Source of the DNA: Symbiodinium sp. CCMP2592
Lineage: Eukaryota > Sar > Dinophyceae > Suessiales > Symbiodiniaceae
Direction: 5' to 3'
Assembly: GCA_905221615.1 (NCBI GenBank)
Contig: CAJNDT010000506.1
Span: 124,001 to 188,000, forward strand
DNA: 64,000 nucleotides
Part shown: in pieces, positions 19,997 through 61,994 of the stretch
Numbering within the stretch: the first letter of the stretch is position 1
Layout of the letters: each line of letters begins with the position of its first letter
Position numbers and translations under genes: made by a program
Notes under the pieces: generated by a model
What the model was told of the DNA's origin: nothing
What the model saw: the letters and a program-made list of their open reading frames with translations, nothing else
Database searches by the model: none

Positions 19997-20653
19997 CTAC
20001 ATTTGAAACGATTCGGCATGCACGTGAACGTGAGCCCCCTTTGGGTCGCTGTGCTTCTTGGCGGCTTGGAAGCAGTCGTCGACTAGGGCGCCCGGGCCAC
20101 AAACGAACACGCCGATGTCAAGGATATCCCGTTTCTGCGCGCTCTGCACGGCAGCGGCGATGATCCCGGGCACGTCGGGTCGTCCCTTAAGGACATAGGG
20201 CGGCAAGGGGATGGATTCCTTTCCACTGTAGTGAAGCCGCCGGTTGTCTGGGTTGCGGTCGAAGTAGGCTCCACAAGTGCTGCTGAAGTACTCCCCGGCG
20301 ATATGCTGGAGCAAGGAGGCGGATCGGCAGCTCCAGACCACGTGGACGTCCTTGCCTTGGCGGATCAGATGGGGTACCATTGAGGCCGCCGGGGTCACCC
20401 CCACGCCGCCCACGACGAAGATGATGATCCGCATCGGCTCAAGAGACCCCAAGCCGCCACCATAGGGACCAGACATGTAGAAGGTCAGTGGCTTGTTGGG
20501 ACTCTGCTTTACAATCTTGTTGTGCAAAGCCTGGGTCCAGGTCTTGCCTGGGCAAACCTTCCAGATGAACTCCACCTCCGCATACTCCTTGTCAATGCCA
20601 CCGCACTTCCGAACGATGGCTGTAAACGGGTGGCTCAGTGCGCTCCCAGCGTC
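19997..20653 (-). CDS. Last exon: FAD/NADPH-binding domain
   Basis: Encodes LSHPFTAIVRKCGG (flavin HPFT motif), then FYMSGPYGGG, FVVGGVGVTPAASM (NADPH binding) and VFVCGPGALVDDC. It terminates QM-stop after a VHVHAESF tail. The acceptor is an AG at 20,654-20,655. The intron 20,654-20,782 has GT-AG ends and joins in phase 0 after GAWLS. FRE/NOX proteins end with the same order of motifs. Confidence 0.85.
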   Translation of the reverse strand, partial: DAGSALSHPFTAIVRKCGGIDKEYAEVEFIWKVCPGKTWTQALHNKIVKQSPNKPLTFYMSGPYGGGLGSLEPMRIIIFVVGGVGVTPAASMVPHLIRQGKDVHVVWSCRSASLLQHIAGEYFSSTCGAYFDRNPDNRRLHYSGKESIPLPPYVLKGRPDVPGIIAAAVQSAQKRDILDIGVFVCGPGALVDDCFQAAKKHSDPKGAHVHVHAESFQM

Positions 20654-23348
20654 CTCAGAAAAGCTGCTCTGAACTTTACGTCTATCCAAAATTGCACGTT
20701 GCCTCTAGCTCTAATCATAAGCTCATCCTTTCAACAAGGCTTGCCTCCCTCAAAAGATCAGCAAAGATTCCAGAGACGCCACGGAGAGCCAGGCACCGGG
20801 AAACAGGGTCGTCTTCTTCCGGAGCTTCACGGCGATGTGGGCCGGGCCCCCGTCCGCAGGAAGCACCCTGGCAGTGCCGACCACTCGAGCAGGAACCATC
20901 AAAACATCGTAGCGGCTGTACAGAAAGTCCCCAATCCAAAAAAATGCAGCTGAGCCGATCCAGGCCATGGCACCCCAAAAACCCCGACAAAGCATGCCGT
21001 CAACGTTGAGAGAGAGGATGTGCAGGTTCGCCACAATAACTATGACAGGTGCCAGGAAGTGAGTGACCTTGCAAAACACTGTACCACCGAACCCGGAAAT
21101 TGTTGATGCTGAAGGGAAACACAATAAGAATGCACACCAAGAGCGTGTAGGCGGTCGTCACCTGATGCTCCGGCAGCATGTCCGGCCCGAAGGCAACCAT
21201 GTACAGGATCCCATGCAGAAGCATGTAGATGCTGGCCACGGAGCCCACCACGTAGTGAGCCTTGAGTGTCTTTTCGTAGGAGATCTGATACATAGTCCAT
21301 GCTAAGGACCAGCGACGGGTTCCCAGGTAAGTGGCGATGGAGATCATGTATACCGTCATTCGGCCAATCCAGCCTGGCACGGTAAAATCGGGCAGGTAGT
21401 AGAGCTCGTAGTGGATCGCCCAGAAGGTGGAGAGCAGCGCGGTGGCCGTCAGGAACCAGAGCAACATCACGGCAACCCCGATCGGCATCTCCAGGTAGCT
21501 GTTCAAGAGGTTCCCTAGGCAACCTGTAAGAGGCTTGGCCACAATTGGCCTGCGGAAGATCCTGTCTTGCATGGCAGGGCTCATGAACACAGGAGACACG
21601 TGGTGGAGAAACCAAGGGAAAAGCACATAGGCAACGAAGGCCAAACCATCCAAAATGTTCTGCTCGGTGAATGCCTGCTCTGCACGTGGGTCACAGGAGC
21701 CCTTGATGGGGAGCCCATCGAGAGCACCCTTCGCATGAGCCATGGCAAAGTAAGCCGTAGCATCCTCTCCGCACATTGGCTCAATGACCGCAGTGCCAGC
21801 ATCATGGTCTGGCATGTAGAAAGTGAGGTCATAGACGTTCCCATGGACACAGGACCAGCAGTCTGTGGGGGTGTTGTGCTTGGCAATCTCGCTGAGGACC
21901 AGGGGTGTCTGTCTTCCCACGCTCTGAGGTACTGAAGTTCCGCCGTACTTCCCCATGAGAACCGCGCCCTTGTTCACGAGGATTTGCAGATAGGTCCACG
22001 GATGCTTCCCCACGAAGGACGTTGTACCATCGCCACCACACCATGCATGCACCGAGCCATCTCCGCCACTGTGCTTGTATGCAGACACATCGTAGACTCC
22101 ACAGCCCAGGACCATCCAACAGTCCGTGGGTGTGTTGTGCATCTGCAGCTCTGCGTCCGTCACGGTGGTCGCGGGTGGAGTCGGCTCGTCTGCTTGGCAC
22201 TGCCTTGCAGGGACCTGGCCAGTTGGCCCTGTCATTGACTCTGGGGCTGCAATGCCGTTGCCTTGGGTCGGCGTGGAACCACCGCTAGTGCAGCTTCCCA
22301 CACAGCCCTTCATGGTTGCGAAGCGCTTTTGCACCATCATCGTGATGTAGCTCTGGGGGTGCGATGCAGAGTCGAAGGACCGAGTCCCGTCTGCTCCACA
22401 AGAGGCCTGAATGCTCATCCGACCTCCTGAGTGCCGGTCCAGGTAACCTGCAATCGCAACACCAACTCACAGCCGAGAATCTATTGAGATCTAGGTTTGG
22501 GAAAATGAGCGTTAGACTGATAGACGAGGTAAATGCTCCGGGTGGCCGGTGACGTCCAGGACATAGCCGTGCACTGCCATCCAGCAATCCGCCGCGATGT
22601 TATGCTTTGCCACCTCGTCCATGGTCAGTGGAGCAAGCTGCACGTTGCCGGAGTCAAGTGCTGGCTGCTCGCCAGTGATCTTGCCCTGTGGGAAGCCGCC
22701 CTTCTGTGCTAGGGTTGTCATGTAGCCTACTTTGTGGTTCTTGTCGAAAGACCTCGTGGCATTGGCACCGCAGAGGATTCCGACGCTGGATGCACCGCCC
22801 GTGTGCTTGGGCAGGTAGGCTGTGACCTGAGGCAGAGGCCCAGACCGAACAAAGCAATATTTGTAGCAACAGGAGTGGCATGACGAAATGAGCCGCCAAG
22901 TCACATCCCAGATGATGCCTTCAGAGCCAAGGAGGATCCAACAGTCCTGAGTCGTAGAATGCATGGCCAGCTCCTCCCAAGCGATCAACCTGTCTGGAAG
23001 CATTCCTGCAGGAAGCTGGAAGGTGCAACCTCGTCCCAGAATTGTCGTCGTGGTCCCAACTTTCGTGATGCCATAATCGTCAATTGCCTCCTGGAGCTCA
23101 TCAGGTCCGTGCACGCAGTCGAAAGAGGCTGTTGCATCGAGCCCGCAAAGAGCGGCCACGTTGGCCCGGCCACCGTCATGTTGTGCCAACAAGCCCTCGG
23201 AGGCGTAAACATTTCCGTAGACGGACATCCAGCAATCCGCTTCCTTGTTGTGTCTCTGCAAGAAATCCGTGGAGCCGCCCGTGAGCGTCACCTGTGGCGC
23301 TCAAACCCCCCTAACAAGGCTAGGATGTCTACAAAATCTGACGAAACC

Positions 23349-23382
<34 letters not shown>

Positions 23383-25784
23383 AAAGAGAGCCAGCCGAAA
23401 AGACGAAAGGCATGGAAGAGAGTCAATGGAAGCCGCCTCGATGTTCGGCAACACCTGGATGGGCGAGGGCCGCGGGTAGGTCTTGGACGCGTCAATGGCC
23501 GACGCCTGGGCCGAGAAAATTGAGAAAAAACCCGTTTGACATGATCTCTCCCGCTCAATCCTCACCAAGCGGCGGAAGAGAGGGTGCCAATCTGGCCTCC
23601 TCCAATCCGGCTCAGGAGAGGCTTTGTCAGGTAGCTCATGGGATGATGCAAGTCGAACGTGGCTGTGGCATCCACCCCGCAAAGACCCAAAGACAAGAAG
23701 CTGCCGACGGGATGAGCTTTGGCCGCCCCCACAAAGGAGAAGACCTTTCCATGCACAGCCATCCAACAGTCCATCTCGGTGTTGTGGTCCTGAACCTGGT
23801 GAATTGTGTAGACCGGCAAACTTGAGGGAAGTGCGGGAGCCGGCCCTCCGGAACCTGCATAGCTAAGCTCCAGCTGAGGGGTGCCTTCCACCGTGGCCGT
23901 GTCACCCATCCACGAGACGGTGTTCAGCTTCGTGCCAAAGAGCCTCACGGCATCCAGCTGGCCGACATCCGCCATTTGAAACCCGACCGTGGCTTTGATG
24001 GAACCTGGTCGCAGGTTGGAGACGACGACCTTCACGTTTGCAAGGCCCTGGGCTGCCATGGCATCGTGCACCTGAGCACGCAAAGCTGGGAACACGGGGT
24101 CTCCATGTCAGTTGCCTCTGCGTTAATTAGTAAGGCGTGCTCTCTCAGTGCTCCTGCCTTGATCGCGAGCGAGGCCGATGTCTGCGCGCTAGTGAGGTCA
24201 TAGCTGGAGGCGACCAGATTCGGGAAGCTCAGATTATACCACATGGTTGCATTCTGAACTGTGGTCATCAAGGCGGTGGTGGTGGTAGTAACTGAAGTCA
24301 CTGGAGAACTTCCGCAGCCAGCTAGGTCACCAAGAACCAAAGCACCAGAACGCACGGACAGGTCAACGTAAGAGATGGGGTGGATGGCTTCAAAGGCTGC
24401 GGTTGCATCTGTGCCGCAAAGCTTCTCGATGGCCCCTTGCCCTCCTGGTGGAGTGTACCGGTCTCCTGTGTGGAAGGGTATGTAGTTGGTCATATCGTAC
24501 ACCTTGCAACGCATGGCCAGCCAACAATCTGACAGAACTGAGTGCCAAGACATCTCAGAGCTCGAGATCAGGTTCACGTTCTCCGTCGGAACTGTAGGGT
24601 TCAGGACAGAGGTCCCCCCTCCAATGTTCGAAGGTGGAGGGGTTGGTGTTGGTGCTCCCGGCGCTGTCGTCGAGGTTGGACTTGGCGTAGGATTGCGGTT
24701 GATAGTGGCATCATAGGTTCCCATGACCGGCATTCGCGAGATGTAGGAATCAGCATGGATGCTTCTGAAGGAGGTGGTCACGTCCTGGCCACACAGAAGC
24801 ATTGAACTACCAGCCGCATGCGTGCTGCGTAATGCGGTCATGTCCACCACCCAAGTGCCAATCCGGCCCCAGCAATCGTTCGGACTGGCATGAGCAGACA
24901 GCATCGAGGCCGTGATCGAGGTGTACTGACTGGGACCCGATGGACTTGGGCTCGGACTTCCAGATGGCGTCGTGGTAGGGACTGGCGCAGGTGCCGGGTA
25001 ACTGCCTTGCAGATTGCCCTTCATGATGATGTAGCCATGGTTCACCCCTTGGCCCAAGTAGGAAAACGGATGAAAGGCCCGATATGATGCTGTTGAATCT
25101 TTGCCACACATGGACAGGACATAAGCCTTGCCACCGGGATGATAGTGGGTGTACAGGGACACATCCATGACAACATTTCGACTTCCATCATCCATACTGG
25201 TCCAGCAGTCATCGGAAGATTTGTGCTGAGCTACCTCAGAGGCTTGGATGGCAGTCGCAGGGGCTGCAGGCAGGGAGCCTCCAACCGCACAATTGTTGCG
25301 CATGCCTTCGTCATCATCCTCGTCCTCGTCCTCGTCATCGTCATCGTCATCGCCATCCAGACGTCGAGCCGGGATCGAAACCGCAGTCCTGCAGATTTCC
25401 GTGGCGTCGCCGTCCGCAATGGATTCCTGCAGGTCTTCCAGGCCGTGAACACACCAGAATCCAATGGAACCGTCAAGCCCACACATCTGTTCAATCACTC
25501 TGCGGCCGCCCTCGTGGTTCGACAGCAAGCGTGTCACATCATATACAACCTGAGTCCAGCAGCGAGTGGAAACCTAAATCCACAACAGGAAGAGGACTTT
25601 GCAGCCAAGGTACCTTCTGCCGGTTCACCACAATCACGGTCCAGCAACTCGTGGTGGTGGCATGGTTCGCCAGCAGGTTTGGGATTTCGGCGGCCGTGCA
25701 GCTGTTGGCGCTTACGGGCTCAACAACTGCCAGGACCACCGCCAGCCACGTAAGGAGCCATGCATTCATGATCTCGGACCCCAT
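19997..25784 (-). CDS. Tandem cytochrome b5 array fused to ferric reductase/NADPH oxidase
   Basis: Multi-exon minus-strand gene of roughly 1,700 codons. An N-terminal signal peptide is followed by ten cytochrome b5-like modules, a ferric-reductase-like membrane core, and a FAD/NAD(P)H reductase domain. Each b5 module repeats a DCW block, an H[xx]GG-type first haem ligand, a CGxDxT..F block and a second His. All ten keep both His residues; module 2 has the canonical HPGG. The core has His pairs spaced H-x13-H and H-x12-H, as in NOX/FRE proteins, then GGVGVTP and CGPG nucleotide-binding motifs. By family knowledge the reductase would take electrons from cytosolic NADPH across the membrane; the array would then lie outside or in a lumen and could store or relay them. 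The topology is inferred. One apparent 1-nt frameshift lies at about 21,072. The start Met could be 25,784, 25,769 or 25,817. Confidence 0.85.
20783..22447 (-). CDS. Exon: b5 modules 8 (end), 9, 10 and membrane core
   Basis: Begins YLDRHSGGRM (second half of b5 module 8). Module 9 follows (YKHSGG then GKHPWTY), then module 10 (PDHDAG then MAHAKG). The ferric-reductase core comes next with hydrophobic segments, including FLHHVSPVF, MLLWFLTATALLSTFWAIHY and AHYVVGSVASIYMLLHG. The frame then shifts by one base at about 21,072 and continues VTHFLAPVIVIVANLHIL and RKKTTLFPGAWLS. Dropping the extra G restores the expected WYSVFK-VTHF join. The second His pair lies just after the shift. Confidence 0.8.
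22448..22546 (-). other. GC-AG intron inside b5 module 8
   Basis: The 5' end on the minus strand is GC (22,546-22,545) and the 3' end is AG after GATTGC. Splicing joins VLDVTG to YLDRHSGG in frame. No GT donor gives this join. Confidence 0.7.
22547..23291 (-). CDS. Exons: b5 modules 6, 7 and start of 8
   Basis: Module 6: LQRHNKEADCWMSVYGNVY, AQHDGG, CVHGPDE. Module 7: MHSTTQDCWILLG, then a GT-AG intron at 22,827-22,904 (78 nt) that joins GIIWD to VTAYLPKHTGG in frame, then KNHKVGY. Module 8 starts VAKHNIAADCWMAVHGYVLD. Removing the intron restores the same VYDVT-xY-H spacing seen in the other modules. Confidence 0.8.
23292..23565 (-). other. Intron with (GA)n microsatellite
   Basis: A GTGAGG donor near 23,565 and an AG just before 23,291 bracket a stretch with (GA)n at 23,349-23,390. 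The exact junction phase does not resolve with these ends, so alternative sites a few bases away are likely. Confidence 0.55.
23566..24094 (-). CDS. Exon: SEA-like spacer and b5 module 5
   Basis: The first part (FPALRAQVHDAMAAQG, VKVVVSNLRPGSIKATVGFQ) looks like an alpha/beta extracellular spacer, SEA-like by eye. Module 5 follows: VQDHNTEMDCWMAVHGKVF, AHPVG, LHHPMSY. The upstream junction with the preceding exon (between about 24,095 and 24,140) is not resolved; a non-GT donor is possible. Confidence 0.65.
24110..25549 (-). CDS. Exon: b5 modules 1 (end) to 4 and linkers
   Basis: Starts VVYDVTRLLSNHEGG (module 1, second His in CVHGLED). An Asp/Glu-rich linker coded by a GTC/ATC repeat (25,309-25,355) follows. 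Module 2: HKSSDDCW, HYHPGG, FHPFSY. Module 3: HASPNDCW, THAAG, IHADSY. Module 4: HSVLSDCW, FHTGDRYTPPGG, IHPISY. Pro/Ser/Thr-rich linkers separate the modules, as in secreted multidomain proteins. Confidence 0.8.
25550..25613 (-). other. 64-nt GT-AG intron in b5 module 1
   Basis: GTACCTTGG at the 5' end and GGACTCAG at the 3' end. Splicing joins VVNRQK to VVYDVT in frame, restoring a b5 module. Confidence 0.8.
25614..25784 (-). CDS. First coding exon: signal peptide and b5 module 1 start
   Basis: MGSEIMNAWLLTWLAVVLAV then VEPVSANSC reads as a signal peptide with a hydrophobic core and a small-residue cleavage site. LLANHATTTSCWTVIVVNRQ follows as the start of module 1. An in-frame Met upstream (25,817) adds MTFAASDSFVS. 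The signal places the b5 array outside the cytosol. Confidence 0.75.
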
Positions 25785-44473: not shown

Positions 44474-45030
44474 CAGTGAGGCTGCTCCCTATATCCTCCC
44501 TGGATGCGATGTAGTGATCGACGCCCATAAAGCAGATGGATGGAGTACTGTCGGACCCACTGCGGGACACGCAGCCTTTGCAGGACTTCGAGCAGCCAGC
44601 CAGGGTTGACCCGCTCGAAAGCTTTGGCCATATCTGTGAGCAGCACGTTACAAGACTGCGTTTCGGATAAGATACAATCTTGAACCATCATAAAATTCGC
44701 CGGAGCTTCCTTGAGATGGCTGACGAGAGCTTGCGACTGGTTAAGGCAAGGGGCAATAGCCGCCATCATAGACGCAAAGGCTGCGGAGTCAATAATGCGA
44801 GCAGCTGTATCCGGCATGTCAAGGGGACGGAAGTTATCCGCGAAATGGCCCGCATCGGCTTTGGGTATGAAGGTCAATGCCTGCGTGGGTGGGGGAGCAA
44901 GCCCTATAACAATATCAAGGAAATGAGCATGGAGCACGCGGGCAGACTCAGAAGGGAGCTGTCGATAGCACTCGTAGGGACAGCCATCGGGTCCCGCCGA
45001 AGAGTCCCCCGTGCGCAGGAGGTGGAACAT
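44474..45030 (-). pseudogene. Element B: RT, N-terminal motifs
   Basis: GDSSAGPDGCPYE (template-grip motif), LTFIPKADAGHFADNFRPLD (motif 2), and VLLTDMAKAFERVNPGWLLE (motif A, Asp ~133). It ends RIQGGYREQPHC at the inversion breakpoint. The frame differs from the endonuclease upstream. Confidence 0.75.
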
Positions 45031-46817
45031 AATATCTTCTTCCTGCGGGAGGGGACATGCTGAACCGGCTGAGGCGTATACGCGTTCAGGACAAGCTCCC
45101 AGTCAGGGGAGTAGTCCGGCGGAGACTGCTGCCAAAAGGCGCGTGTTGCCCGCAAGGCAACGTCTACCTCCCCCAGGGTTGAACAGGGGGATCCGTCCGC
45201 ACGCAGTACCTGTGCAGTACCGAAGGACCCAAGGGAAGATCGGTGAAGATCCCATCTAGGGTGTTTGTGCGGCATGCGCGCACCAAGCTGCCGAGGATCC
45301 TTGATAACCGGTGGAGGAGCGGCATTGACGGTTTCAAGGGTCATCAGCTGCATGACAACTTGCTGCACCTCCACAGCACTCAGCCTGACCGGTTGCCCTT
45401 GCGTATGAAGGGTCCGGGTAGTGAGCAGGTGCTGAAAGGTCTCAAAGATAGACCACGGTATGAGAAAGGAGGCAGCATTTGGCCGCTGCCTTTGCCGTTT
45501 AAGGAGGTAGGGAAGTGCCCCTAACCTGCCCGCCGAAACATGACTAGCAGCATGCTCCAATTCCCCTGCCCACCATACATGAAAGAGACTCTGCAGGTCT
45601 TGTAGTGCGGGCGAGTCAGGAAGAAGGGCCTTAAGGCGCTCCAGGCGCACTTTAGCCGGATGCGATGAATGCCCCGGTATGCGTGTAGCCGGGGAAGCTG
45701 CCGGCTGTTTAAAGGCACGTGTCGGTATCGCACGATAAGCCGCGGCTCCGACGTCATTGGCGAGCATACGTGCTCGACGTACTCGAAGAGTGACGACGCC
45801 ATGGCCCTGTGTGAGCGTGTGGGGCCAAAATACTCGACTCCGCAGGTTGCGACAACCTTCAGCTTCCTCATTATGCAAAATCTCGTCCAGGCAGGATGAG
45901 ACCCCACCAGACCGATACGTTGGGGAACAAACAGAGACCTTGCGCAAGAGACCTTCCGCACAAAGCAACTCCCACAGACCTGGTTGCTTGGTCGCCATAC
46001 GATTGAAGTCACCCGCGACAAAAAGCTCATCCCGGTGAGGCCGAGACGCGAGGTACGACAACAAGGCCTGTCCCACTTCAACCACCTTGTCGGGATGAGC
46101 ATAAACGCAAATGATCTCACAACGCTGAGCAAAATACTGAATACTGGCCGTAAGAGCAAACCCAGGCATGATCTCTGTTTGAGACACCAGCGTAAACGGA
46201 GCCGGGACTAGGATGGCCACCCCCGAGCTGCAAGTGCCTGAGATCGCAGGTGACGCCGCAATGGCTGCACGCGGGAAGGTATGTGCAGCAGTGATGGGAC
46301 CACCGGCATCCCAGTTTGTCTCCTGAAGGCATACCGGCCCTCGCTGGAGAAGGCTGCAAATTGTTTTGGTTTTGCATTTGGCAGCGACACTCGTCCAAGT
46401 TCTGTAGCTGGACACATTCCAGGTAGACACTTGCAACGCGAGGCCATAGCCTTTCTTGGGATCAGGAGCGCACTTGGTAGTGATAACGGGCTGGACCAGC
46501 GCAAGTATTGCGCCTCCAAGCTCGGCTTGCAGTGCGGCCACATCCACATTTTGCGACGAGTAGCCCAACACGAGTGGCAGCAGGTGGACGCCCTCCTGCG
46601 AGGGACTAGGAAGCGAAGGTGGAGCAACCGTCCATGTGTCCAGCAATCCAAGCAAGCACTGATTGACAGTCGCCTGCGAAAATACTGGAGGGGTATTCGT
46701 ATAAGACAGTGCATCCCGAAGAGCTGATAAGGTGGGGAAGGAGATGGGGGCCTTGCAAGTGCCAAATAAGGTTGAGTGACCGTACGCGACAACGTTTAAG
46801 GTTAGCTTGCTGTGCAA
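44904..46817 (-). pseudogene. Element B: APE-type endonuclease
   Basis: 637 codons. LQVSTWNVSSYRT (Asn ~134), VCLQETNWDAGG (Glu ~166), ICVYAHPDKVVE, ELFVAGDFNRMA (Asp/Asn ~270-272) and YRSGGVSSCLDEIL. These are the ExoIII/APE fold motifs that nick target DNA in LINEs. The final residue set (SDH-like) is not clearly seen. The end of this section overlaps the RT start in a different frame. Confidence 0.75.
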
Positions 46818-59619: not shown

Positions 59620-60190
59620 GAGTGGGGTTTGCCATCTGGCAATGAGGTCTGCCATCTGAGCCAGTGAATGTATGAGCATTGCCCAAACTGTTGCCTGAGC
59701 AGCTGGTAAACTTTCCGGCTAGTCAGTGACGAAGCCTTGCTTTGACGTAATCCCAGCCTTCTTTTTCTGAAGGCCACAAAACGTGGTTGCGTTGCGGTGT
59801 AGGGTTTAGGATGAGTAAGTGAGCCTTGCTGTAGTCCATGTGGGCAGCCAAAACTCTTTGTTGACATCTAGCAGGTTTTTCCGAATGCACGAATGTGAGC
59901 CCGTCATATCATGCTCATTCGCTTCTGAAATGTTGAGCCTGTTGCAAGGTCGAAGCTGAGCGCCGTAGTCTTTTACGTAGAGCAACGCGCAGCATGGGAA
60001 ATCTGGATCCGAAATTGTCCGCTTGCAGAAAGCTAGGACAGGCAGACTCTATTGATCCGCCGCAGTTTGATTCGAGATTGTATGCTGCAGGGTGTGAGGA
60101 TACAGACGAGGGAACCTGAACGAGCCCAGAGGTGGCGGGCAAATGATTTCACCCTTAGGACAAAGCCGGTGGTATAATACTCAGCTGCCA
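59620..60190. other. Gene-free part of the tandem unit
   Basis: No supported coding region. A small inverted repeat ACTCAG-ctgccaa-CTGAGT lies at about 60,178-60,196 and again near 63,537-63,555. A GTAGGGTTTAGG telomere-like string lies near 59,800. Confidence 0.5.
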
Positions 60191-60249
60191 ACTGAGTTTG
60201 ATTGACTCCGGCATGTCTGGGACCTTCCACCGTTCTAATAGTGTTATAC

Positions 60250-61080
60250 TACCCAAAGGGTGTGTAAGTGGGTTCCCTTGGTTTTTGCAGCAGATGGGGT
60301 GGGTTCCCTGTGGGTTCCCTTGTTTTTTGCAGCACTTCAGGTGGGCTACATATGGGTTCCCTTGTTTTTTGCAGCATTTCGGGTGGGTCTGTGTATGTTC
60401 TTCATTGAGCTTTCTTGTAGATTCCCATGGTTTTTGCAGCATGGACGGTGGGTTCCCTGTGGGTTCCCTAGTTTTTGCAGCATTTTTAAATGGGTTCCCA
60501 TGGTTTTTAACAATATCGACGGTGGATTCTCTGTGGGTTCCCTTGTTTTTTGCAACACTTCAGGTGGGCAACATATGGGTTCCCTTGTTTTTTGCAGCAT
60601 TTCGGGTGGTCTGTGTATGTTCATCACTTAGCTGTCTTGTAGATTCCCATGGTTTTTGCAGCATGGACGGTGGGTTCCCTGTGGGTTCCTTAGTTTTTGC
60701 AGCATTTTTAAGTGGGCTCCCATGGTTTTTCACCGTCGATACGGTGGGTTCTTTGTTTGGTTCCCGGGTTTTTGCAGCATTTGAAGTGGGTTCCCATGGT
60801 TTTCCAATAGGCTCTTTTGGCTTTTGCAGCATGTCAGCTGGGTTCCCTGTGGGTTTCCTAGTTTTTTGCAGCAGTTTTAATGGGTTCCCATGGTTTAACA
60901 GCATCGACGGTGGATTCCCTGTGGGTTCCTTGCTTTTTGCAGCATTGCAAGTGGGTTCCCATGGTTTTCCCAGCATATATTGCGCAAAGGTCTGGGTGGG
61001 CTCCCTTGGCTCTTGCAGTGTGTCAGCTCGGTTCCCTGTGGGGTACATGTGGGTTCCCATGGTTTCTCCAGCTCGCGCAT
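60250..61080 (+). repeat. Minisatellite of GTGGGTTCCC / TTTTTGCAGCA unit
   Basis: About 20 diverged units of roughly 35-50 bp, each built from GTGGGTTCCC[AT]TGG followed by TTTTTGCAGCAT. Long open frames on both strands follow from the repeat and have no other coding support. Confidence 0.85.
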
Positions 61081-61084
61081 TATG

Positions 61085-61994
61085 TTTCAGAGAAGAGTGG
61101 AACTGAAGAAGATGTTCAGGACAGTGGCTGCAGGTGTGGCCCAGTTCCATCGCACATCTTGCGCTGCATTTGGATTTGCTGCTTTGAAGTAAGGCTGCAA
61201 AAAGCACGTCTGCTATCTGCAGTTTGGGTCGAGACCAAAGACGTTAAACAGGCTCACCTCTGATGCACATGAGGCTCGCCGCCCTCCTGTGGTAATGCTC
61301 TTGATAAGTTTGCTGCAGCTAAATGCTGGCACGCTGATGCGAGGATTTTGCGGCATCTACTGGTAGATGTTAATCTCAGCTTGTAGCTTCAACTGTTTCG
61401 ATTGCTTGCTGTACGTGGGCTGTTTTTGCGCTGGGAAGCTCCACTTGCAGGAGCTCTTTTTTCCTACAGAATCGTAGGAAGCCTCGAAGGGCCTCCCCTG
61501 TGCGGGAAAGATCTTGTACGAACAAGAACAGAAGCACTTGTCTTGAAACGGCAGCCGATGGCAAGTTTGGCAAATTTTCCAAAAGTATCTCACATTTCAC
61601 AGCATGTTGGCTTTCTTGGACGTTGATCCAAACAGCATGCGGAAGGAATTTTGTTTTTCCGTGCAGTTTTCCAGCTGAAACGGGTTCCAAAAAGCAGCTC
61701 TAGTCCGGGCACCGAAACGGGGCTCCCGATTTTGGCTTTCTTCGTTGGACATACAAGCTCACGCAATTCGGGGCCCCAGATTAGAGCTCAGATTTGGGAG
61801 CCATTTCTGGGGCCCAGTTATGCCGTTTTTTCGTCGAGCAGATGCCACATCTGCGTGCACAGCTGGCCGTTGCGTGCAACAGTATATAAACCTCGCCAGC
61901 TCTGTTTTGCATTTTGCCGGTGTTCCTTCAAAACTCAAAATAACAAGTGGAACGCTCGCAAACATGTGAACCTTGCAAACAGAACTTTCTCACA
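61085..61994. other. Unique spacer ending the tandem unit
   Basis: Between the minisatellite and the next copy. Short open frames only; none supported. Confidence 0.5.

Follow-up and report, generated by a model that had tools for sequence, protein, structure and literature searches.

Within the 64,000-nucleotide stretch of the Symbiodinium sp. CCMP2592 assembly analysed here (contig CAJNDT010000506.1, positions 124,001 to 188,000; hereafter the window), the minus strand from 25784 to 19997 carries a gene for a predicted protein of 1709 amino acids (aa), in which ten cytochrome b5 (b5) modules precede a membrane core of the ferric reductase and NADPH oxidase (NOX) kind. We put at roughly 0.6 the probability that this protein is a single-chain outward electron conduit, with a core that oxidises reduced nicotinamide adenine dinucleotide phosphate (NADPH) feeding an extracytosolic relay of b-type haems. 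The initial annotation had described such an array between a signal peptide and a core with two histidine pairs and motifs for flavin adenine dinucleotide (FAD) and NADPH; its start and end proved exact, all of these elements are found in the protein, with the signal peptide as a signal-peptide-like start, and the strand is added here. Its further proposal, a single chain with up to twelve haems, one flavin and an outward-facing array, stands as a prediction that fits the loop charges, conserved cysteines, signal-like start and relatives described below.

Pfam places ten Cyt-b5 (PF00173) stretches in the whole protein (E 2.3e-115, 377 bits). Nine modules were scanned singly and scored 31.8–61.2 bits, all above the Cyt-b5 cut-off of 23.7; module 4, which was not scanned singly, is the best Cyt-b5 stretch of its open reading frame (ORF). 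Both axial haem histidines are present in all ten, 23 residues apart in seven modules and 24, 21 and 30 residues apart in the remaining three. The outer part comprises the following domains, given with their haem histidines and then their paired cysteines:

25418..25694, minus strand: b5 module 1, split by an intron; His69/His92, Cys47/Cys80
25043..25255, minus strand: b5 module 2; His194/His217, Cys172/Cys205
24731..24922, minus strand: b5 module 3; His301/His322, Cys283/Cys310
24353..24574, minus strand: b5 module 4; His417/His447, Cys399/Cys435
23856..24256, minus strand: intron-split non-b5 domain (about 105 aa), after module 4 and before module 5
23616..23816, minus strand: b5 module 5; His641/His664, Cys623/Cys652
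23082..23282, minus strand: b5 module 6; His748/His771, Cys730/Cys759
22707..22991, minus strand: b5 module 7, split by an intron; His847/His870, Cys827/Cys858
22332..22634, minus strand: b5 module 8, split by an intron; His938/His962, Cys920/Cys949
21975..22169, minus strand: b5 module 9; His1058/His1081, Cys1042/Cys1069
21711..21908, minus strand: b5 module 10, nearest the membrane; His1147/His1170, Cys1129/Cys1158

A module profile built from these ten was run on the window protein and on the database proteins P0001–P0011 introduced below. It gave 52 module matches in the window protein and P0001–P0010, of which 48, from nine proteins, are complete; four shorter than 60 aa were dropped as incomplete. 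Every complete module retains both haem histidines and the cysteine pair, and seven positions are invariant throughout: a histidine before the first cysteine, Cys-Trp, the first haem histidine, Cys-Gly and the second haem histidine. The second cysteine (that of Cys-Gly) is absent from five aligned b5 structures, which are close kin of one another and make a small control, and from two further b5 structures; the first (that of Cys-Trp) is absent in the same five and present in the latter two. Between the outer parts of the window protein and of P0001 from Symbiodinium natans, 34 of 34 cysteines, 38 of 39 histidines and 71 of 106 serines are unchanged. A cysteine pair in each module and an even, fixed total would fit disulfides formed in an oxidising compartment. 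Pairwise identity among the window modules is just 19–45% (median 34%, 45 pairs), and the array is therefore probably old.

Modules 1–4 are joined by linkers of 54, 40 and 52 residues, partly rich in Ser/Thr/Pro between modules 2, 3 and 4, and modules 6–10 by linkers of 30, 24, 54 and 22 residues; modules 4 and 5 are 150 residues apart, and 22 residues lie between the end of module 10 and the first transmembrane helix (TM1). The lengths and the Ser/Thr/Pro content suggest a relay that is tighter near the membrane and looser further out. Between modules 1 and 2 runs a series of 15 Asp/Glu residues, in a region that is also acidic in P0001 and P0004, and this run could bind metal; a hexamer repeat (25308-25357) lies in the stretch that encodes it. 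The non-b5 domain (24256-23856, minus strand) is conserved in P0001 and P0004 and has two N-glycosylation sequons at its start. A SEA-like label for this domain came from resemblance by eye only and was rejected, its three orthologous copies having no Pfam match at E up to 10.

C-terminal to the array, seven hydrophobic stretches were located by eye, and four motifs beyond them make up what we take to be the FAD/NADPH end:

21008..21644, minus strand: TM1 to TM6, from hydrophobic stretches and haem histidines
20918..20983, minus strand: TM7, from a hydrophobic stretch
20632-20621, minus strand: HPFT
20470-20453, minus strand: GPYGGG
20410-20390, minus strand: GGVGVTP
20101-20084, minus strand: CGPGAL

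The predicted haem ligands of the core are His1330/His1344 in TM4 and His1395/His1408 in TM6, 14 and 13 residues apart within the pairs; four such histidines in two core helices, and the HP of HPFT, are retained in all ten family proteins. Among the profiles that the initial annotation had suggested, Cyt-b5 and NAD_binding_6 pass in the window protein, the latter at 29.5 bits against a cut-off of 22.2, whereas Ferric_reduct falls just short (26 bits against 28) but reaches 36.2 bits in P0006; both core families are matched in nine of nine relatives at E up to 1. NCBIfam gives weak reductase matches only, and the predicted fold of P0006 matches NOX dehydrogenase domains.

In all ten proteins the lysine plus arginine content is higher in loops TM1-2, 3-4 and 5-6 than in loops TM2-3, 4-5 and 6-7, the contrast being smallest in P0008 (12 to 7). 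The window protein opens with a hydrophobic stretch (residues 8–26), from which its signal-like start was judged; no transit-like stretch for plastid targeting was seen by eye, with no predictor applied. From the loop bias and the hydrophobic start we infer that the N-terminus lies outside and the C-terminus inside, which would make the array extracytosolic and the NADPH end cytosolic. Fungal metalloreductases likewise have one additional helix ahead of the core (PMC3591440, section 13).

The relatives come from three protein searches in which the 7982, 7993 and 7996 candidates with most shared words were scored, so that further members may be missed. The first returned P0001, P0002, P0003, P0004 and P0005, the second added P0006 and the Chromera velia proteins P0007 and P0008, and the third returned P0007, P0009, P0010 and P0011. 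The last of these, a weak, b5-less ferric reductase (E 2.9e-9, no b5 match) with a C-terminus unlike that of the family, was excluded from all family counts. P0001 (S. natans, 1707 aa) has all ten modules and 80% identity over 99% of the query, so that the same architecture does occur in another dinoflagellate, as the initial annotation had proposed to check. P0003 (Effrenium voratum; modules 6–10 and core) and P0004 (Durusdinium trenchii; modules 1–7 and part of 8, without the core) are partial models; these three, all database entries only, share the architecture as far as each model extends, at 62–80% identity to the window protein.

In P0002 (1078 aa, on a contig of 3427 nucleotides) and P0005 (1103 aa, on a contig of 3500 nucleotides), a single ORF carries modules 5–10 in frame with the core. 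These contigs look like RNA, because the window gene has five introns across the same stretch. Transcripts ending between the array and the core, which would have undone the initial annotation, are thus contradicted for modules 5–10, whereas the link of modules 1–4 to the core is based on the S. natans gene model and the window.

P0001 is named Duox2 in the database, and its listed Pfam domains are Cyt-b5, Ferric_reduct and NAD_binding_6 only. Judged by domain content this label is wrong, its orthologue in the window being without any DUOX-defining domain; we rejected a DUOX identity for the window protein on the lack of any Pfam match to a peroxidase domain or EF-hands at E up to 1 over 1707 aa.

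The Chromera protein P0007 has a signal-like start and the same seven-helix core, but one b5 instead of ten; P0008 begins inside a b5. Both share the family C-terminus, which among P0001–P0003 and P0005–P0010 is ESFQL in one protein and ESFQM in the other eight, P0007 included. NOX enzymes likewise end in a conserved aromatic stretch. In a module tree of 67 columns, where 13 of the 45 inner branches have good support and 16 are open, the module 10 group takes in the Chromera b5, P0005 module 6 and P0010 module 2 (96/96), and P0005 module 5 falls in the module 9 group (99/97). P0005 module 4 joins module 3 and not module 8 (89/75), contrary to a strict order, and long branches meet inside the module 10 group, including P0005 module 6 with P0010 module 2. 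The grouping of the Chromera b5 with module 10 points to the membrane-proximal module as the ancestral one, with copies added in front; the array thus probably grew outward from a fusion of one b5 with the core.

As a conduit, the protein would draw electrons from cytosolic NADPH via FAD to the inner haem (His1330/His1395) and then to the outer haem (His1344/His1408); members of the superfamily are described as moving electrons from NADPH in the cytosol across a haem core to the outer face (PMC3591440). The outer haem would pass them to module 10 and not directly to oxygen or iron, a step suggested by the short gap before TM1 and by the DOMON-FRE and CYBDOM precedents discussed below. Beyond module 10, electrons may travel one at a time along up to nine further disulfide-stabilised modules, strung on flexible linkers in a vesicle lumen or on the outside of the plasma membrane; the array would serve as a relay, with brief storage, towards an extracytosolic acceptor, for which ferric iron or another metal complex is our best guess. 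Haem loading, the disulfides and the direction of electron flow are what we infer from the sequence.

The alternative that survives best, although we consider it unlikely, is a superoxide-producing NADPH oxidase, in which oxygen would take electrons from the outer haem of the core or from exposed b5 haems. Cultured Symbiodinium does produce extracellular superoxide, about 20–30% inhibited by the NADPH oxidase inhibitor DPI (PMC2939047), and among the matches listed by the structural aligner the solved structures nearest to the core in fold and profile are NOX and DUOX. The published NOX criteria include His-119 and Thr-178/Gly-179 (PMC3591440, PMC9421330). When placed without gaps, the Thr-178 position is Thr in nine of the ten family proteins, but the Gly-179 position is Gly in two and Ala in eight, including the window protein. 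The NOX motif (V/I/L)xGP(F/Y)G (PMC9421330) reads M-S-GPYG in the window, with the motif core there and Met in first place. The NOX label of the initial annotation fails at the position of His-119 in TM3, which is Tyr in nine proteins and Phe in one. His-119 is linked to oxygen handling by the authors of PMC3591440, and its absence fits an outer haem that donates to another haem rather than to oxygen; it is not decisive against an oxidase, because preNOX proteins without His-119 are considered by the same authors able to make reactive oxygen species.

Alternatively, the array might bind, store or sense haem or redox state outside the cell, electron flow not being its purpose. Ten haem sites without a visible catalytic partner, the Ser/Thr/Pro-rich linkers between modules 2, 3 and 4 and the acidic run would suit such a haem-handling protein. 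We nevertheless find this quite improbable, for the array is fused to a conserved four-histidine core with NADPH motifs, also in the one-b5 Chromera protein, which argues for electron transfer, and the core-adjacent module forms one grouping with the Chromera b5.

The gene model behind these comparisons joins ORF pieces from a six-frame reading at splice sites, three of which were placed by alignment to P0001; a first version of 1707 aa served for the Pfam and homology searches. It has eight exons, from the ATG at 25784 to a stop codon that ends at 19997 on the minus strand, and seven introns whose donors are, in order, GT, GC, GC, GC, GT, GC and GA, with acceptors of AG followed by G in all seven. 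According to PMC4083563, Symbiodinium uses GC and GA donors besides GT, and its AG is often followed by G; the splice sites therefore fit a dinoflagellate of this kind. Features of the model are:

25614..25784, minus strand: exon 1, with the ATG, the signal-peptide-like hydrophobic stretch (residues 8-26) and the first half of b5 module 1
25613-25550, minus strand: intron splitting b5 module 1
24157-24072, minus strand: intron splitting the non-b5 domain
23437..23505, minus strand: exon 4, small, a linker, with an in-frame match in P0001
23436-23292, minus strand: intron after exon 4
22904-22827, minus strand: intron splitting b5 module 7
22546-22448, minus strand: intron splitting b5 module 8, GC donor
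21060..21085, minus strand: reading-frame change near 21,080, between TM5 and TM6, too tight for an intron
20654..20770, minus strand: last intron, GA donor and AG acceptor, from alignment to P0001 and splice sites
19997..20653, minus strand: last exon, with the FAD/NADPH end, the conserved C-terminal ESFQM and the stop

An AG/CT dinucleotide repeat (23349-23390) lies within the intron 23436-23292. The frame-change site is read through in all nine relatives that cover it (P0001–P0003 and P0005–P0010), and a very short intron was rejected as its cause since it would delete residues kept in all nine. The change may be a sequencing or assembly error or a very young lesion, both being possible; of the core residues ahead of it, 177 of 204 are identical in S. 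natans, and identity stays high beyond it (266 of 321 residues), so that any decay of the window copy would be very recent. That two adjacent genes were read as one, or that the copy is dead, is very improbable: the frame change and the partial Effrenium and Durusdinium models speak for it, but in S. natans a single model covers the entire protein, the transcript-like contigs carry continuous ORFs and identity persists past the change, and on P0001, P0002 and P0005 we rejected a gene-fusion artefact.

In the rest of the window, tblastn with the protein found no second copy, returning this gene alone, and no RNA genes were found. A long run of large ORFs at 31978-52697 (minus strand) is retroelement-like by eye; one of its eight scanned ORFs (44904-46817) matches Exo_endo_phos (E 3.2e-7), and the other seven gave no Pfam match at E up to 0.01. 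An ORF at 60159-61106 (plus strand) with a recurring FLQHFGWATYGFPCF-like phrase probably reflects the translation of a tandem repeat in the DNA.

Several points weigh against an outward conduit. The window copy of the gene has the frame change described above. FAD_binding_8, the remaining family that the initial annotation had named, has no Pfam match in the window protein and is matched in one of nine relatives, and TM3 is only weakly hydrophobic (hydropathy 0.5–0.9). The disulfide proposal is based on cysteine pairing and conservation. All three N-glycosylation sequons fall in the outer part, but this part makes up more than two thirds of the chain, and their position carries little weight. 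The structure model of the array, from a three-sequence alignment, is poor (mean confidence score, pLDDT, of 43.9), and modules 9–10 of P0006 stay under a pLDDT of 60 in its predicted structure. The linkers, at 22–54 residues (150 from module 4 to module 5), may be too slack for electrons to pass quickly. C. velia, which encodes a one-b5 relative, is reported to show no ferric reductase activity and to acquire its iron non-reductively (PMC7676907), and this counts against a ferric-iron acceptor, at least in that alga. No biochemistry, localisation or expression data were found for any family member.

The outward conduit has partial precedents. One clade of eukaryotic ferric reductases, DOMON-FRE, carries on the outer side one or two DOMON domains that are predicted to bind haem (PMC3591440, section 13). 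The likeness lies in an outer predicted haem domain on a ferric reductase core, but there the domains are DOMON, two at most, with no ten-fold array; the window protein has no DOMON match in Pfam at E up to 1, its outer domains being b5. In CYBDOM proteins such as Arabidopsis HYP1, a trans-membrane haem pair feeds an outer b-haem domain and Fe(III) is reduced (PMC10784544); as described there, these differ in their cytochrome b561 core, their ascorbate supply and their single outer haem. The window protein shares with NOX and DUOX the four-histidine haem core, the NADPH end and the fold, and differs in its missing His-119, the absence of EF-hand and peroxidase matches, its extra helix and its b5 array. 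Long multihaem electron wires, with c-type haems, are known from bacteria, where the decahaem conduits MtrC and its kin hold about ten of them in one outer chain and electrons leave the cell. The haem number per outer chain is similar, but those conduits have an unrelated fold and a separate membrane partner.

The initial annotation held the arrangement to be undescribed. No description was found in the open-access literature, in titles and abstract starts among the matches listed (subscription papers lay outside the scope), but the S. natans protein is already in the databases under the name Duox2, and Chromera has a one-b5 version. As far as our searches go, then, the parts are known and a ten-fold outer array on such a core is not described. 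We put forward tentatively, as possible rather than probable, that chromerid and dinoflagellate algae evolved a eukaryotic counterpart of the bacterial decahaem conduits by outward b5 duplication, with twelve b-haems and a flavin in one polypeptide moving or storing cytosolic reducing power many nanometres outside the cell; iron, the cell covering and, for coral symbionts, the interface with the host are possible targets of reduction. Correcting a misleading Duox label, our analysis provides a defined gene for testing, with the one-haem Chromera protein as a starting point for comparison, in algae whose ways of acquiring iron and whose redox reactions outside the cell, with superoxide and coral bleaching among the topics, still pose questions. 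If the proposal is true, a conserved, genetically encoded b-haem array joined to a membrane core powered by NADPH would do for a eukaryote what the multihaem wires do for bacteria.

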